Position numbers and translations under genes: made by a program
IMG/VR virus record: IMGVR_UViG_3300047666_001017
Coordinates: 1 to 26,696 of that record
Strand: one strand, 5' to 3'
DNA length: 26,696 nucleotides
From: a virus
Shown: one piece after another, positions 1-9,302 of the stretch
How positions within the stretch are numbered: the first letter of the stretch is position 1
Layout of the letters: each line of letters begins with the position of its first letter
Notes under the pieces: model-generated
Database searches by the model: none
What the model saw: only the letters and a program-made list of their open reading frames with translations
Told to the model about the DNA's origin: nothing

Positions 1-360
1 GCACTTCGTTGATTTCAGAAACCTGTTTTAGCTCTTCGATTTGACGTACTTCGTTGATTTCAGAAACCTGTTTTAGCTCTTCAATTTGACGCACTTCGTT
101 GATTTCAGAAACCTGTTTTAGCTCTTCAATTTGACGCACTTCGTTGATTTCAGAAACCTGTTTTAGCTCTTCGATTTGACGTACTTCGTTGATTTCAGAA
201 ACCTGTTTTAGCTCTTCAATTTGACGCACTTCGTTGATTTCAGAAACCTGTTTTAGCTCTTCGATTTGACGTACTTCGTTGATTTCAGAAACCTGTTTTA
301 GCTCTTCAATTTTGCGCACTTCGTTGATTTCAGAAACCTGTTTTAGCTCTTCGATTTGAC
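1..360 (-). repeat. 45-bp tandem repeat, 8 near-identical units, in tape measure gene
   Basis: Eight consecutive 45-bp units start at 1, 46, 91, 136, 181, 226, 271 and 316. Each encodes QIEELKQVSEINEVR on the minus strand. All differences between units are synonymous (ATC/ATT for Ile, GTA/GTG for Val) except at the junction of the units at 271 and 316, where CAA becomes AAA (Gln to Lys). The array begins at or beyond the window edge, so the real copy number is unknown. The hydrophobic residues sit at every third position of the unit. Confidence 0.97.
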
Positions 361-2860
361 GTACTTCGTTGATTTCTGTCAATTGCTTGACAGCTTCGAT
401 ATGGGGGGGGGCAACAACCACAGAAACCTGTTTGGCCGCTTCAATTTGTGGAGTATTAACAGCGTTAGAAACGTGCTTGACTGCCTCAACTTTTAGCGTT
501 TGAGCAACCTTGGCCACTGGCTTGACTGCTTCAATTTCGGGCGTTTCAGTTATTGCATTAACCTGCCTGACCGTTTGTACAACTTCTGCGACATTATTTT
601 CACCGGCAAACCAATTAACAATCTCGCCAAACGCCTCCTTAATAGCTGAGATTGGAGACATTACAGCATCAACAATCCAATCTAAAAAGCCGCTAGCTAA
701 GTCCTTTATGCCGCCCCATAAACCACTGAAAAATGCGGTGATAGGTTGCCATGAGGATATAATAAGACCCAGTGGTGTCCAAGACAATAACATCGTAAAT
801 AGATCCCACGCACCACTAAACTCCGACTTCACACTTCCCCATAAATCCCCGAAAAACCGCGAAACAGGTGTCCAATCATCAACTAACGACAACCCCCACG
901 CCGCAAGCGCCACGATCGCGACTATCAACAATCCGATAGGGTTAGCCATAAGGATCAGGTTAAACAGGGTCATAGCACCAGACATAACACCGGTTGAAAT
1001 CGCTGCAGCCTTGCTTGCTACAGACATAGCAATAGTGGCGGTGGTATTGGCTATCGCTGCCACTTTACTGGCAATCATAGACCCCTTTGCACGTAGATTT
1101 GATAAAGTGAAAAAGTCTAACGCTGCTCGAGCGCTGATCAGGGAGTTTGAGAAAAAGGCAATGGAAAAACGCGCGGCAATGCTGGCCACTTTAAACGCGA
1201 TGAGTCCAACCACGGCAAACGCAATGACTTGACTTAACAGCGGGAATGTTTGAATAAAACTATCTAATCCTGTTGCAAAGCCACCGATTACGGACCCAAT
1301 AGCAACAAGTGCAGGGCTAAACAATTTACCCACGGTATAAGCCAAGTTATCGATACGCTGAGTAACAATTGTTAAGCTTTCCGCAGGACCATGACCAATC
1401 GCGTCGGCCATTTCCATTGTAGTTGACATTCCTTTGGCCAGTTCGCCTTGCATTTCGACAGTTTTACCGGTTAATTCATCCAGTTTAGGTAATAACATAT
1501 CGATCATGTCGACCGCTTCTTTTGTGCCAAACGCTTTTTTAAGCTCTTGTTTAGCCATGTCATTTAGCGTACCGCCATACTTGTCACTGATGGCCGTTAA
1601 AATATCCCCTGTTGATAGTAAATCACCGTTGGCGTTGTGAACTTGTATACCCAGTTTTTCTGATGCTTTACCCGCATTCGCTAAAAATTGCTGGTATTTT
1701 GTAGCAGCTTGACCGCCCTTAAACGTGGCAGACAACATACCGCCCACCGCTAACTGTTCGGCCAAACTTTGTTTCGCTTGAGTTGCAGACGCGCCTAGGG
1801 TTTGCATATATTGACTAATTTTATCACCGTCGGTTTTAAACATTTTTACCGAGGACGAAATACCTGCACTGAAATATTTGCCGAACTCTAAATCCTTATC
1901 GGCTTTTGATAACGTATCCCAATCTTTGATAACCGAGGCACCAAACTGGGTAAATTGCTCTCGATAGATTGAATAGCCGGTTGCAAATAAATCGGTCATT
2001 GTGCCAACTGAAGCCTTTGTCCCTGTTGCAGTTAATGCGGCTATTTTTGTGAATTCGCCCACGGCAACATCAGATAAAGAATAAATGCCAGATTTAATAT
2101 CATACGATGCTTTGATAAAATCTGTGGTTGTGGTGCCTGCCCACTGGCTAGAAAAATCACGGGAAGCTTTGGTGATCTCCTCAATTCCCTGGGAGCTAAT
2201 GCCTAATGATTTTATTTCACCCTGGGCAGATGAAACATCACCGTACGCGTCAACTAATCTTTTTAACCCATAAACGGCCACACCAACACCGATGATATCC
2301 GCAGATGCAGAGGCGCGCATTTGACTGTTTCGGTCACGGATTTTAGCCAAGGCTTTTTGCTTGTTAGCTGTTTCAGATAGTTTTTGTTGATTTTTATCTA
2401 ACTCTTGATTGTACTGTTTAGTTTGCTCTCGGATCTTGCGCGTGGCTTCATTGAGTTTATTTGTAGCCACACCCGCGCCCGTCAAACGTGATCGTAATTG
2501 TTGTAATTCGGTTTGTTCTCGTTGATGGCTCGCGCTAAGTTTTTTTACCTCTGTTTGAGCGCGTTTAAATTCAGCCGTTAATTTTCTGGTAGGTTGGGTT
2601 GTCTTATTTAGTTCAGCACCTAAGCGGCTTGCCTTTGATTTTGCGGCGTCTAACGAAATGCCCGAGACGTCAATTTGTGACTTCAACTTTCTAAAATGCT
2701 CGATATCTTTAGTGGTTGCCCCAAGCTTTTTTAACTTAGCCTGATTGTCTTCAATTTTTGACGATAAATGAGTGACATTTTTAGTGACGTTACGGATCGG
2801 TGCTGTGATTTTATCAATCAACCCCATCACCATATTCAATTTCATATTTTTATCTGACAT
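1..2860 (-). CDS. T: Tail tape measure protein (P2 gpT-like), 3' end outside window
   Basis: The tape measure sets tail length and occupies the tube lumen. The frame starts at the ATG at 2860 (MSDKNMKLNMVMGLID) and stays open to the window edge, so at least 953 residues are present and the C-terminus is missing. Residues about 1-30 match the usual start of gpT/TP901-type tape measures. Residues about 30-170 are charged and look coiled-coil (KIEDNQAKLKKLG, EQTKQYNQELDKNQQKL). A long Ala/Gly/Ile-rich hydrophobic region lies at about 580-660 (MANPIGLLIVAIVALAAWG), typical of the family. From about residue 759 the protein turns into 15-residue repeats. I see no strong ribosome site upstream. The gene follows FI, FII, E and E' exactly as in P2. 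The nine-base homopolymer at 403-411 keeps the frame. Confidence 0.93.
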   Translation of the reverse strand, partial: MSDKNMKLNMVMGLIDKITAPIRNVTKNVTHLSSKIEDNQAKLKKLGATTKDIEHFRKLKSQIDVSGISLDAAKSKASRLGAELNKTTQPTRKLTAEFKRAQTEVKKLSASHQREQTELQQLRSRLTGAGVATNKLNEATRKIREQTKQYNQELDKNQQKLSETANKQKALAKIRDRNSQMRASASADIIGVGVAVYGLKRLVDAYGDVSSAQGEIKSLGISSQGIEEITKASRDFSSQWAGTTTTDFIKASYDIKSGIYSLSDVAVGEFTKIAALTATGTKASVGTMTDLFATGYSIYREQFTQFGASVIKDWDTLSKADKDLEFGKYFSAGISSSVKMFKTDGDKISQYMQTLGASATQAKQSLAEQLAVGGMLSATFKGGQAATKYQQFLANAGKASEKLGIQVHNANGDLLSTGDILTAISDKYGGTLNDMAKQELKKAFGTKEAVDMIDMLLPKLDELTGKTVEMQGELAKGMSTTMEMADAIGHGPAESLTIVTQRIDNLAYTVGKLFSPALVAIGSVIGGFATGLDSFIQTFPLLSQVIAFAVVGLIAFKVASIAARFSIAFFSNSLISARAALDFFTLSNLRAKGSMIASKVAAIANTTATIAMSVASKAAAISTGVMSGAMTLFNLILMANPIGLLIVAIVALAAWGLSLVDDWTPVSRFFGDLWGSVKSEFSGAWDLFTMLLSWTPLGLIISSWQPITAFFSGLWGGIKDLASGFLDWIVDAVMSPISAIKEAFGEIVNWFAGENNVAEVVQTVRQVNAITETPEIEAVKPVAKVAQTLKVEAVKHVSNAVNTPQIEAAKQVSVVVAPPHIEAVKQLTEINEVRQIEELKQVSEINEVRKIEELKQVSEINEVRQIEELKQVSEINEVRQIEELKQVSEINEVRQIEELKQVSEINEVRQIEELKQVSEINEVRQIEELKQVSEINEVRQIEELKQVSEINEV
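361..585 (-). repeat. Five diverged 45-bp units of the same repeat
   Basis: The 45-bp period continues for five units with strong sequence decay. On the minus strand they read VVQTVRQVNAITETP, EIEAVKPVAKVAQTL, KVEAVKHVSNAVNTP, QIEAAKQVSVVVAPP and HIEAVKQLTEINEVR, in protein order. The consensus is xIEAVKQV followed by a variable half that ends in Pro in several older units. The homogeneous units at 1-360 look like a recent expansion of the last of these. Confidence 0.85.
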
Positions 2861-2881: not shown

Positions 2882-2913
2882 AAATAACAACCTATCGTCA
2901 TCGGTTGTTATTT
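2882..2913 (-). terminator. Terminator-like hairpin between E' and tape measure gene
   Basis: The perfect 11-bp arms AAATAACAACC (2882-2892) and GGTTGTTATTT (2903-2913) form a hairpin with a 10-nt loop. On the minus strand it runs into six T residues (2884-2879). The stem is AT-rich, so termination may be partial. The hairpin contains the stop codon of E'. Confidence 0.6.
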
Positions 2914-3045
2914 AGATTTTTCTACACTTTCCATACGCTCACCCGCGATCCGATGCCAATCAAGCAACTCATCCAGGTACATTGACGCAGTACACGATGG
3001 ACCCCACCCCGTAAAAACGAGATATAGATCGGCCTCTAGCTCCAT
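2908..3045 (-). CDS. E': GpE' family tail assembly protein (45 aa)
   Basis: The start ATG overlaps the stop of E by one base (TAATG). The product begins MELEADLYLVFTGWGPSCTA and contains YLDELLDWHRIAGERME, the (L/M)xLxELLxWHxxA signature of the small P2 GpE' family. In P2 this sequence is made as a -1 frameshift extension of gpE. Here the frame is -1 relative to E and is open back to a T6C slippery site inside E, so the physiological product is probably the fusion. The gene has no evident Shine-Dalgarno sequence of its own, which also favours frameshifting or coupled reinitiation. These proteins act as tail assembly chaperones for the tape measure protein encoded next. Confidence 0.85.
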   Translation of the reverse strand: MELEADLYLVFTGWGPSCTASMYLDELLDWHRIAGERMESVEKSK

Positions 3046-3326
3046 TACATCAGTTGTGCAAGTTTCGAGGCCACGAAAAAACTGGCAACTTCCGCCTGTA
3101 TTGTCAAAACGTCTTCAACATCTAATGTTAAAAACTCAGCTTCGGTTATGTCAGTGATCCGTGGGATTAGTTTTTTATGACTGTCAAAATCTAGTTCGAC
3201 AATCGCCGTGGTTTTTAAACCCCGCAAATGACCGGCTTTCGGTTTTTCGATAGATAGTTCTTGGATTATTTTTTCGCCGCGCTTGAAAGGCACAACTAAT
3301 GTCACTAGGGTTTCGTTTGAACTCAT
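3045..3326 (-). CDS. E: Tail assembly chaperone gpE (P2-like)
   Basis: This is a 93-residue protein, close to the 91 residues of P2 gpE, between the tube gene and the tape measure gene as in P2. The sequence (MSSNETLVTLVVPFKRGEKI then LDFDSHKKLIPRITDITEAE) fits the phage gpE/TAC family. Near the 3' end, codons 82-84 read AGT TTT TTC, forming a T TTT TTC slippery heptamer. Tail chaperones of this class coat the tape measure before tube polymerisation. The terminator at 3354-3383 lies upstream, so this gene needs read-through or its own promoter. Confidence 0.88.
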   Translation of the reverse strand: MSSNETLVTLVVPFKRGEKIIQELSIEKPKAGHLRGLKTTAIVELDFDSHKKLIPRITDITEAEFLTLDVEDVLTIQAEVASFFVASKLAQLM

Positions 3327-3398: not shown

Positions 3399-3905
3399 TT
3401 ACTGTGCTAGCGCTTCACGTATTTTCGTGTTTCGGTCGATACCATTAACACGGAAAATGTTGTTTTCTTTGTCAATATGAATAATTTCTTTGGAGTCTAG
3501 TTCGAGCGTAAAAACCTCAACGCAAATAGCAAATTTAGTGGTGACTTCCGTTTCTGGCTTAAACTCGCCAAATTCGACTTCTTTCCACAGCCCTTGCATG
3601 CTAACAACCAATGTAGAAATATCATCGCCCGTATCGATGGCGCCACGTAAAACTAACGTTTCGTCACGACTAGCACGGTCGCCGATCAGACCAAGCACCT
3701 CGCTCGAATACTGCGAAATAGTAATGCTTGATTCGAGTTTTTCGAGTTTACCGATATCACGTTCAACATCTCCCGCAAAACCTGCCAGGACCATGTCAGT
3801 GGTTTTAGTCACGATTTTAGGGAGGGTTGCCACATTAGCGATCCCTACAAATGATTTATTTTTGATGAAACAATTAATGTCTCTAACTATACTGGGTAAT
3901 GCCAT
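3399..3905 (-). CDS. FII: Major tail tube protein (P2 gpFII-like)
   Basis: The 168-residue protein is close in length to P2 FII and sits directly after the sheath gene. The start MALPSIVRDINCFIKNKSF resembles the family opening, in which P2-type tubes begin M(A/S)LPRxLxxxNxF. Later segments (AGFAGDVERDIGKLEKLESS, RGAIDTGDDISTLVVSMQGL) fit the same family. The protein stacks in hexameric rings to form the inner tube. Hairpins with T-runs lie on both sides of the gene. Confidence 0.93.
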   Translation of the reverse strand: MALPSIVRDINCFIKNKSFVGIANVATLPKIVTKTTDMVLAGFAGDVERDIGKLEKLESSITISQYSSEVLGLIGDRASRDETLVLRGAIDTGDDISTLVVSMQGLWKEVEFGEFKPETEVTTKFAICVEVFTLELDSKEIIHIDKENNIFRVNGIDRNTKIREALAQ

Positions 3906-3985: not shown

Positions 3986-5128
3986 TCAGCTAAAAATAGC
4001 TTGGTTGTATTTGTTAGTGATGTGCTGTCTAAACGTCATGCGCTCAGCAACGTCGTAAAAACCTAAATCATAATCCCAGTAAACCTGCCCGGTACCCATG
4101 GCAGCCACGTTAAGCTCTTTATCTATCCAGCACTCACCGCCCGATATAACCTGTCGAGATATTAGGCGACGAATTAAGCCGCCGACTCGATTTTTAACGC
4201 CTTGTGCATACGACTTGGTGACGTTGCGATCAAGCATTTCTTGGTGCGCATAAAGTATCGAATCACCGACGATGTAGCGAATACGCTGTTGCGGTAATGC
4301 ATTACCGTTCGTTAAACGGTTACCCCATAAGTACCACCCACCTTGTTGGTTAACAGCCACCGTCACGTTGGCCATGTTGTACAGATTGGCTTTACTGGTT
4401 TTGCTACCCATTGCGTGATCAATGATTTCAACTGTCCGCAATACGCCGTAAATTTTACGATTAGAGGGGCTATTCCAATACCCCTCTTCGTTGTCTACTC
4501 GTACAATATGACCCGCCACGGTGGCCGACATATAGCGCTCAACGTCGGCTTTTGCTACTGCATCAAAAAATACAAACCCACCGTTTAAAAAATAAACGCC
4601 ATCATAGTTAGCAGCCGCATTTATAACAGCGGAATACCCCCCGGCATGATCACCATCGATCAACGCTATAGCATTTAGTTTTTTAGCTATAGACGCCATT
4701 TCAGCGCCCACGGCTGGTAAATGGCTGTACTGAGGCGCAATGATTAATCGAGGACGCAAACCGAGCACAGACTCAGCACTCAACAAAGCGTTAAGCCCTG
4801 AAAATGCATTCAAATCATTATCAATTGCGCCTATAATTTTTGCTATTTGCGTGGATTCGTCTTCGTCCTCACCTTCACGCACGACGACAATTAACGAGCC
4901 GCTTTGACGATAGATGTCTTCAAGGGCTGCACGTAAAGAGCCTGTTGTGCCTGCCGACGCTATCATTTTTTTACTGTTAACTAATACAGGCAGGCCGATG
5001 GGAAAAACCGATGCATCTGCATCGTCAGCGGTGGCAACTAAACCGATTACCGATGATGCCAGAACTTCAATCGGCTTCTCGCCATTTTCTAAAAAATACT
5101 GTTCAACGCCGTGAAATACTAATGACAT
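3986..5128 (-). CDS. FI: Contractile tail sheath protein (P2 gpFI-like)
   Basis: The 380-residue protein has the size and order of P2 FI (396 residues). The N-terminus MSLVFHGVEQYFLENGEKPI and the following VLASSVIGLVATADDADAS are typical of the sheath family, whose first residues exchange between neighbouring subunits. The C-terminal half carries the conserved WGNRLT segment and ends in a beta-rich, membrane-free domain. The sheath polymerises around the FII tube and contracts on infection. The start is supported by AAGGAAA about 6 bases upstream of the ATG. A strong palindromic terminator lies 50 bases upstream, so a promoter may sit in 5129-5178, though I cannot point to one with confidence. 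Confidence 0.95.
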   Translation of the reverse strand: MSLVFHGVEQYFLENGEKPIEVLASSVIGLVATADDADASVFPIGLPVLVNSKKMIASAGTTGSLRAALEDIYRQSGSLIVVVREGEDEDESTQIAKIIGAIDNDLNAFSGLNALLSAESVLGLRPRLIIAPQYSHLPAVGAEMASIAKKLNAIALIDGDHAGGYSAVINAAANYDGVYFLNGGFVFFDAVAKADVERYMSATVAGHIVRVDNEEGYWNSPSNRKIYGVLRTVEIIDHAMGSKTSKANLYNMANVTVAVNQQGGWYLWGNRLTNGNALPQQRIRYIVGDSILYAHQEMLDRNVTKSYAQGVKNRVGGLIRRLISRQVISGGECWIDKELNVAAMGTGQVYWDYDLGFYDVAERMTFRQHITNKYNQAIFS

Positions 5129-6992: not shown

Positions 6993-7771
6993 ACTTTCCA
7001 TATTCCTTTCACGTTTACAACACTGTGGATCACGCCTGATTCTGTTATTTCGCAAATGTCAGAATCAACGCCCCTGACTTTTATTTTATTTTTTTGATTG
7101 TCTAAAAAGCTAGGGGCTAATAATCGACATTGATTAACATCGCTAAGGACGACCGAATCATCAACTAAAAATCTAAACTCAGTGCCGCTTTCAGGTATCT
7201 GTAAGTCACCTGCCGCAGTGAATATATGCAATTTACTTAACGTTGCAGTGACATTGCCGGCTATTTCCACATGATTATCTTTTTCGTCCGCATGATTTTT
7301 AGCCCGTTGTAACACATTATCGGCGTAATCTCGCGTGGCTAAAACAACGCTCGGATCGATCAATAAATTAATCGTTGCGGTATTGTCTGTTACAAAAACA
7401 ATTCGAACATTAACCTCTGATATTGCACCATTGGCCGCTGCGCTTTTATAACTCGGTGGGTATTTAGCAATACCATAGCAAATGCCCGTATCAGTAAAAA
7501 ACGCCGCTTCTCTTATTGTAAATCCACCAACATGCTCGGGTACAACGCCTTCTAGAATAAATTGATTGGGTTTTTCAGGGTCATAAATAATGTTATTAAT
7601 GGCCCCCCTGTATCGCTCATTGACTAATGCAGTCTCATAACCAGTCGGATCGTATTCAACCCCTGCGCTGTCGCCGACTGCGAATTCAGTTAAATTGACA
7701 GATTCATCTGATCCCTTGGCATTTGATTCTGCAGCAAATCCAGATTGGGTGACTAAAGAATAGTAGTTCAT
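6989..7771 (-). CDS. H: Tail fibre protein, N-terminal attachment type (P2 gpH-like, DUF3751)
   Basis: The 260-residue product starts MNYYSLVTQSGFAAESNAKG and continues with LTEFAVGDSAGVEYDPTGYE and REAAFFTDTGICYGIAKYPP. These are characteristic of the phage tail-collar fibre N-terminal domain (DUF3751) that attaches to the baseplate next to gpI. The protein is much shorter than P2 H (669 residues): after about residue 165 only a short domain follows, and the host-binding part appears to have moved to the next gene. The start overlaps gpI by four bases (ATGA). Confidence 0.88.
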   Translation of the reverse strand: MNYYSLVTQSGFAAESNAKGSDESVNLTEFAVGDSAGVEYDPTGYETALVNERYRGAINNIIYDPEKPNQFILEGVVPEHVGGFTIREAAFFTDTGICYGIAKYPPSYKSAAANGAISEVNVRIVFVTDNTATINLLIDPSVVLATRDYADNVLQRAKNHADEKDNHVEIAGNVTATLSKLHIFTAAGDLQIPESGTEFRFLVDDSVVLSDVNQCRLLAPSFLDNQKNKIKVRGVDSDICEITESGVIHSVVNVKGIWKV

Positions 7772-8472
7772 AGTTTTGGGTTTACCGTTTGTTTGATTGA
7801 AGTTTTCATCACTGCACCGCGATAAAACAAACCTTGTTGAGTTATATCAGTGAACAAATATGGCTGGACAATCGTTTTTATGTGTAAAGTTTTCATCACT
7901 GCACCGCGATAAAACAACCCAGTTCGGCTTATCTCGTTTAATAGGGATGGCTGGACAGTCGTTGTGATTGCATTTTGCATGAAAGATGCTGAAAACATTT
8001 TACTCTGACGCTCTAAAATGAGGCGTAATAAATAATGTGCAGTGGCACGTTTATTATTTTTAATCGCAGTGTGAATAGAGCCACTTAGTTTTTCTGTTAT
8101 ACCCTGATCATTAACCAATATATCGACGTTAAATGTTCCGGGCACACCATTGGGTTCGGTTTCAAACCATTCTGTGATTTCAGTGTCGAGTGAAAGCGAA
8201 TTTAACCCGTGCTCAATGGCAGGACGGGTACCTTTAATTTTGTGCAAATCGAGTGAGTTAGCAACAACCTGACGTTTAATATTTTCAGGCCACTCGCTCA
8301 CCCAATCATCAACTGATAGCGCCCACGCTAAAAACGGCAAAACATCAACGGGGCAGGTTAACGGATCCCATAATTTGTTTAATGGTATATCAATCTCATG
8401 CATTCGAGCGATGGCCAGATCCAGCCCCCTCTCTAGATCTGATAAATTGCCTGGCAATAAAGATTCAGTCAC
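7768..8472 (-). CDS. I: Baseplate protein gpI (P2-like tail protein I)
   Basis: The start is assigned to the GTG at 8472. It overlaps the J stop (TAGTG), has AAGG upstream, and gives TESLLPGNLSDLERGLDLAI, which aligns with the P2 gpI N-terminus; the longer frame from 8532 lies entirely inside J. The product is 234 residues. The conserved core LWDPLTCPVDVLPFLAWALS is present. The C-terminus carries two copies of a 29-residue module containing GLFYRGAVMKT, 87 bases apart. gpI connects the baseplate wedge to the fibres. Confidence 0.92.
   Translation of the reverse strand: MTESLLPGNLSDLERGLDLAIARMHEIDIPLNKLWDPLTCPVDVLPFLAWALSVDDWVSEWPENIKRQVVANSLDLHKIKGTRPAIEHGLNSLSLDTEITEWFETEPNGVPGTFNVDILVNDQGITEKLSGSIHTAIKNNKRATAHYLLRLILERQSKMFSASFMQNAITTTVQPSLLNEISRTGLFYRGAVMKTLHIKTIVQPYLFTDITQQGLFYRGAVMKTSIKQTVNPKL
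7800..7917 (-). repeat. Direct repeat, 31-bp identical blocks 87 bp apart, in gpI C-terminus
   Basis: Positions 7800-7830 and 7887-7917 are identical over 31 bases, and the surrounding modules are similar at the protein level (TTVQPSLLNEI against TIVQPYLFTDI). A third partial unit (TVNPKL) ends the protein. The repeat lies just before the fibre gene. Confidence 0.92.
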
Positions 8473-9302
8473 TAAAGCACCACCTTGGTCAGTGTGATAC
8501 CGGTGCAATTCGGGGCTTGATTGTATAAACAAACAATGTCAGTCCAGTTGGTTAATGCGACACGCTCAACGCCTTCAACGGTCAACGCCCAGTGCACACT
8601 GGATACGTTAACTTGCCCTTTTAATATTCGACGTTGCTCAACATAAATATCAATACGTGCCTGAGCGGTGGCTAACGCGATTTCACCATCTGGCCCAGAT
8701 TTCATATAAAGCGTAGCGGTTACCGTATAGTTAACCAGTTCAGCCGCTTTTACAGTGACGTGATCAGTGATGGGTCTGCGCGGCCACAAATACGCTTCCA
8801 CTAAATCTAGCAAATTTTGTTCAGGCACCCCCGTTTTCGCCAATATATAAACGTCCATTTGGACCGGAGCGGGGCTGTTCACTTCAACCGCTTTAACGTC
8901 AGCGCTGGCGCTTAAAGCGTGGAATTTATACGCATCATCGGGACCAGCAACAGATAATCCCTCTGGGGATTGTTGTAATCTGTTTTTAAAATCACCGTCT
9001 TGTTCCTCCGTCAGTCTCAAAACGGGCGATCCGTCGGGATGGCGATAATACGTCACACCAAGGTGATCGAGTTCGGCGCCTGATGCAAACGCTAACGTAA
9101 GACCAAGGGCCATATCGTTTGCGGATTGTCGTAACGTCATTTCGCGATATGCCGCCGCCAGCACGACTCGATAAGCGGGATCAGATGGGCTGGCATTTTC
9201 TAGCGCTGCTCGAGCCACTATATCATCAACAATCAACTGAAAATCAACTTGCTGAACGACATCAAGAGGAGGTAATAGCGCTAAATTTAAACGGTTACTC
9301 AT
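8472..9302 (-). CDS. J: Baseplate assembly protein J (P2 gpJ-like)
   Basis: The 276-residue protein starts MSNRLNLALLPPLDVVQQVD, the usual opening of the baseplate J family, and contains DRLxVTYYRHPDG-like (LDHLGVTYYRHPDGSPVLRL) and KAVEVNSPAPVQMDVYILAK segments typical of gpJ. It is a wedge component of the contractile baseplate and interacts with W and I, its neighbours on each side. The length is close to P2 J (302 residues). No odd features. Confidence 0.94.
   Translation of the reverse strand: MSNRLNLALLPPLDVVQQVDFQLIVDDIVARAALENASPSDPAYRVVLAAAYREMTLRQSANDMALGLTLAFASGAELDHLGVTYYRHPDGSPVLRLTEEQDGDFKNRLQQSPEGLSVAGPDDAYKFHALSASADVKAVEVNSPAPVQMDVYILAKTGVPEQNLLDLVEAYLWPRRPITDHVTVKAAELVNYTVTATLYMKSGPDGEIALATAQARIDIYVEQRRILKGQVNVSSVHWALTVEGVERVALTNWTDIVCLYNQAPNCTGITLTKVVL

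Follow-up and report, generated by a model that had tools for sequence, protein, structure and literature searches.

The tape measure protein (TMP) gene at the edge of the window, the entire 26,696-base IMG/VR record analyzed here, contains a tandem array of at least 13 in-frame 15-residue units. We favor a reading in which this array is a segment of the TMP that has grown in frame, is most likely helical in the lumen of the tail tube, and is counted in tail length; we put the probability of this combined reading at roughly 0.5.

An earlier note, made from the DNA letters without database searches, had called the truncated ORF a tape measure gene, and profile matches agree: Pfam PhageMin_Tail (PF10145, 2.8e-14, above cut-off), phrog_28 (3.4e-101) and NCBIfam tape_meas_TP901/TIGR01760 (above cut-off). 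The ORF has the core domain of P2-like TMPs (phrog_28/PhageMin_Tail) and sits in the P2-like gene order of sheath, tube, assembly chaperone E/E' and TMP, with the structural genes on the minus strand; the same sheath–tube–E/E'–TMP order recurs in L008–L012. The E-like chaperone ORF and the GpE-like ORF overlap by one base; in P2, the E/E' pair is fused by frameshift. Farther along, the C-terminal part of another tail gene (7768–8532) carries an 87-bp tandem duplication at 7800–7963 (1.9 copies, 80% matches), in which the peptide GLFYRGAVMKT is repeated. Feature coordinates are collected in Table 1.

Table 1 Features of the window bearing on the TMP array and its gene neighborhood
Feature	Position	Strand	Remark
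Contig end, exact copy of 136–262	1–127		mark of an assembly-graph loop
TMP gene	2–2860	-	953 codons; 3' end missing at contig edge
Eight recent 45-bp units, 15 residues each	2–361	-	7/8 are RQIEELKQVSEINEV, 1/8 is RKIEELKQVSEINEV (K at position 2)
Five older, diverged 15-residue units	362–586	-	same frame and register as recent units
Unit 1, EVVQTVRQVNAITET	542–586	-	aligns with motif kept in array-less relatives
NPIG motif to end of last W/F module	587–944	-	two W/F modules only
GpE-like ORF	2908–3045		
Phage_TAC_7, E-like chaperone ORF	3045–3326		
Tube FII	3399–3905		
Sheath	3986–5128		

The earlier description of eight nearly identical 45-bp units beside five decayed ones, all keeping the reading frame, holds up. 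TRF reports a period-45 array at 1–376 (8.4 copies, 94% matches), and reading the minus strand in frame shows that the frame stays open through all 13 units, from 2 to 586; as in a CL31-type coding minisatellite of a tail gene, the 13 45-bp units are in tandem and in frame. Within the older units, positions 403–411 are a run of nine G on the plus strand, which the TMP gene reads as nine C (GCC CCC CCC CAT), and slippage at this run would throw the TMP out of frame.

The earlier note had also argued, from near-exclusive synonymous variation, that the repeated peptide is under selection. Selection on the peptide stands, but the recent units are weak evidence for it, as they differ at just four sites, three of them synonymous (chance p 0.035–0.055). 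The older units carry the case. Pairwise identity among units 2–6 is 0.61 at first, 0.70 at second and 0.35 at third codon positions, and dN is below dS wherever dS is computable by the NG86 method. Because third codon positions are the most diverged, the peptide of the older units was under purifying selection. Among the recent units, neighbors differ by a mean of 2.3 bases vs 1.0 for alternate units, which suggests recent growth of the array in two-unit (90-bp) steps, with the proviso that the unit order itself is the assembler's path.

Relatives of TMP residues 1–760 occur in Vibrio phages, in IMG/VR and in plasmid prophages of Vibrio, Aeromonas, Edwardsiella, Pseudomonas and others. The family has a common layout: an N-terminal coiled part, the PhageMin_Tail region, hydrophobic helices, 41-residue W/F modules, a linker and a C-terminal domain. 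The window's array lies in the linker, C-terminal to the W/F modules. Whereas this linker spans ~44–68 residues in close complete relatives, it is at least 199 residues long in the window. In complete relatives the C-terminal domain is conserved (a beta-hairpin plus a helix, with an ...RGRLYD end); the window contig stops inside the array, and we infer that the corresponding domain lies beyond the contig end. The nearest relative, L003, has more W/F modules than the window's two, raising the suggestive idea that the longer array is offset by fewer modules (992 residues in L003 vs ~1,000 or more in the window), a comparison of one pair only in which the window's copy number is limited by assembly.

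Sequence comparison further indicates where the array may have begun. Unit 1 aligns through EVVQTVRQV with a motif of the VEVTQKVKQVSEQVP type in relatives, and it matches units 2–5 in register (p 0.001, the best of 15 registers); compared directly, the later units resemble that motif only weakly (p 0.02–0.15). Because unit 1 both aligns with the relatives' motif and matches its neighbors, it is probably the seed of the array. On the preferred reading, the process would probably have started with duplication of this 15-codon motif downstream of the last W/F module. Later growth would have proceeded by unequal recombination or slippage, lately perhaps two units per step, and each unit would lengthen by 15 residues the stretch that separates the W/F region from the C-terminal domain of complete relatives.

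Comparison among relatives shows that repeat-driven length change occurs in this TMP family. First, the TMPs of L003 and L007, phages with 99.6% DNA identity, are set apart by a single 41-residue (123-bp) W/F module; because exact repeats there are no longer than 70 bp, this one-module difference is not a collapse at k = 127. Second, close sisters differ in whether they have a linker array. L082 carries an array of a 19-residue unit, cut by its contig end, that its 96% identical sister L085 lacks, and L079 carries an array of a 42-residue unit that is missing from its ~95% identical sister L083. Finally, the complete TMP gene of L053 (IMGVR_UViG_2579778963_000002) contains a near-perfect linker array of 19 residues x 9.8 (57-bp units, 8096–8654), a count that may also depend on sequencing mode, as the array holds a 180-bp exact repeat. 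This array may be an amplified segment, judging by eye from one similar stretch in L105; a search of phages and plasmids found no copy-number variants of it. With the 14-residue units of L119 and the 17-residue units of L147, an automatic classification places linker arrays in 6 of 99 TMP clusters (the window, L053, L079, L082, L119 and L147), and the five other arrays are unrelated in sequence to the window's 15-mer. That the TMP grows in frame by repeats is well supported, and the window's own array presumably varies in copy number as well.

The 195 residues of the array carry a net charge of -17 and include no W, F or Y, so that it lacks the defining trait of W/F-repeat TMPs of the Belcaid type, a W or F every 11 or 18 residues. 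Hydrophobic residues occupy every third position in the recent units (40/40), and in the older units 19/24 hydrophobics fall in one phase of three. This period of 3.0, with a moment of 2.54 at 120 degrees vs 0.13 at 100 degrees, falls outside the ~3.5–3.75 of heptad or hendecad coiled coils, and across the array (2–586) it matches neither an alpha-helix face nor a coiled coil. We rejected the idea that the period-3 pattern stems from a 9-bp repeat in the DNA: lag-9 identity, at 0.37 vs ~0.22–0.35 for other lags outside the multiples of 45, is too weak to account for it. AlphaFold2, run with a C-terminal alignment built with trimmed relatives, predicts a single 134-residue helix across the array with high confidence; the program is prone to helices over charged perfect repeats. 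By contrast, the L053 array is predicted to be unstructured and to run into the beta-hairpin and helix. The predicted helix and the period of 3.0 fit poorly together, and helicity of the window's array is accordingly a model-based expectation. A search of solved structures returned as its best match an internalin (E 0.013), which we judged to be chance given the low-complexity query, and Foldseek searches with both the window and L053 models gave nothing below E 0.001.

How array length might be read out can be considered by analogy with characterized tails. Tail length in TP901-1 is dictated by the length of its TMP: each residue is worth 0.145 nm, ~127 residues do not count, and repeats on the C-terminal side of the hydrophobic segments do (PMC5099701). 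The TMP of the myophage A-1(L) is for the most part a six-helix bundle whose C-terminus is bound to the spike, and the tube rise is 36.2 Å (PMC10966104). The tail of the telomere phage Valp1 measures 90 nm (PMC11054321), and the 596-residue tail protein at its TMP position gives ~0.15 nm per residue. By this analogy, it is plausible that array length in the window is read out as tail length, with the array itself expected in the tube lumen. Each unit would then correspond to ~2.2 nm or 0.6 of a tube ring, two units to ~1.2 rings, and the assembled 195 residues to ~28 nm. The long predicted helix is what a ruler would need, the TP901-1 repeats are a counted precedent, the minisatellite in a tail gene of corynephage CL31 varies among 4, 6 and 8 copies, and the sister pairs reveal the expected kind of length change; against this reading stand a hydrophobic period ill-suited to an amphipathic helix or coiled coil, the predicted disorder of the L053 array at the equivalent place, the assembly-limited copy number, and the lack of a second 15-mer array in the collections searched, where all relatives found are without it. 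Searches of viral and genome contigs with a degenerate pattern of the 15-mer gave 0 matches, tblastn of the array against phages and plasmids returned none apart from one 25%-identity Lactococcus match, and no close relatives of the contig at the DNA level were found among phages and plasmids.

The main rival to the ruler reading is that the linker is a tolerated tether, which need do no more than join the TMP's hydrophobic and W/F portion to its hub-binding end, is nearly free in sequence and length, and lets duplications persist without setting tail length. We consider this possible, if somewhat doubtful. Because arrays of unrelated sequence recur in this linker and that of L053 is predicted to be unstructured, a flexible tether is a real rival, and the poorly conserved linkers of close relatives, rich in Ala, Gly, Pro and Ser, point the same way. 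However, in the older units of the window the peptide and its period-3 hydrophobics persist despite divergence at third positions, so the sequence is not free, and a helix is predicted over the array.

This same retention of the period-3 pattern in diverged units could instead reflect binding, with each 15-residue unit docking a partner, for example the hub, the tube wall or a tail chaperone, and the number of units setting avidity rather than length. The resemblance of unit 1 to a motif conserved in relatives would fit such a role. Nevertheless, no partner is known, one motif suffices in relatives, the arrays at the linker position of other phages share no motif with the window's, and the structure and fold searches gave no match; we therefore regard a binding array as improbable.

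The contig end limits what can be said of copy number. The first mismatch between the contig start and its internal copy is at position 128, and 127 bases is the longest prefix that recurs elsewhere in the contig; 127 is also a usual largest k-mer setting of SPAdes-type assemblers. The break inside the array comes from a loop in the assembly graph, with a 127-mer branch point, and, since bases 1–127 equal 136–262, eight recent units is an at-least count set by assembly rather than a measured copy number. Two relatives behave alike: the contig of L140 stops inside the W/F modules, where 127 bp are repeated exactly, and that of L082 breaks off exactly 127 bp into its linker array (8062–8188). 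These ends, and the many plasmid prophages among the relatives, are what could be said for the array being an artifact of assembly, or a repeat that matters only as DNA (plasmid iterons, for instance), rather than a protein feature, but this is highly improbable, as assemblers do not invent five unique diverged units and several recent unit types, every unit is in frame, and the older units diverge at third codon positions. The suspect part of the array is only its copy number and the order of the recent units. More generally, because short-read assemblies break in TMP arrays at such 127-bp loops, as in the window, L082 and L140, variation of this kind is under-reported.

More broadly, and with considerable reserve, the linker could be a length cassette of this TMP family, in which unrelated short peptides are repeatedly amplified. 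A population would then hold a spread of ruler lengths, and tail length could shift within a few generations with no new genes; the window's cassette would be a period-3 hydrophobic peptide, maybe forming an unusual rod in the tube. We think this broader scheme unlikely as a whole. If linker arrays do translate into tail length, they provide a mechanism for fast tail-length change, and natural sister phages offer a direct test of the tape measure without engineering. If they are not read out, they mark where along the TMP ruler counting stops.

Repeats in TMPs are already known, as the earlier note had stated and the literature bears out: TMPs with 11- or 18-residue W/F repeats were described by Belcaid in 2011 (PMC3271669) and in TP901-1 (PMC5099701). 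The window shares with them tandem TMP repeats, which in W/F-repeat TMPs vary in number between relatives. In contrast, its unit is 15 residues long, lacks W, F and Y, is near-perfect in DNA and follows separate 41-residue W/F modules. Coding minisatellites of variable copy number have likewise been described in tail genes of phages. The clg55 gene of corynephage CL31, which encodes a minor tail protein, contains a 42-bp (14-residue) in-frame minisatellite with 4, 6 or 8 copies between plaques, units that are beyond the resolution of short reads (PMC8002715). Like clg55, the window has short in-frame units in a phage tail gene, although in the window that gene is the TMP gene, and the measured copy-number variation is that of CL31. 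Closer to hand, the 41-residue W/F modules of L003, L007, L008 and L010 belong to the same TMP family and an adjacent region, and change copy number in frame between near-identical phages; unlike the window's units, they are aromatic, amphipathic and mutually diverged, and differ in unit length and position. The L053 array is likewise a near-perfect repeat in the TMP linker; the gene is complete there, with the conserved C-terminal domain downstream of the array, but the L053 unit is unrelated and is predicted to be unstructured. What is new in the window is the 15-residue unit, its non-aromatic period-3 character and its place after the W/F modules, together with the repeated appearance there of unrelated arrays.
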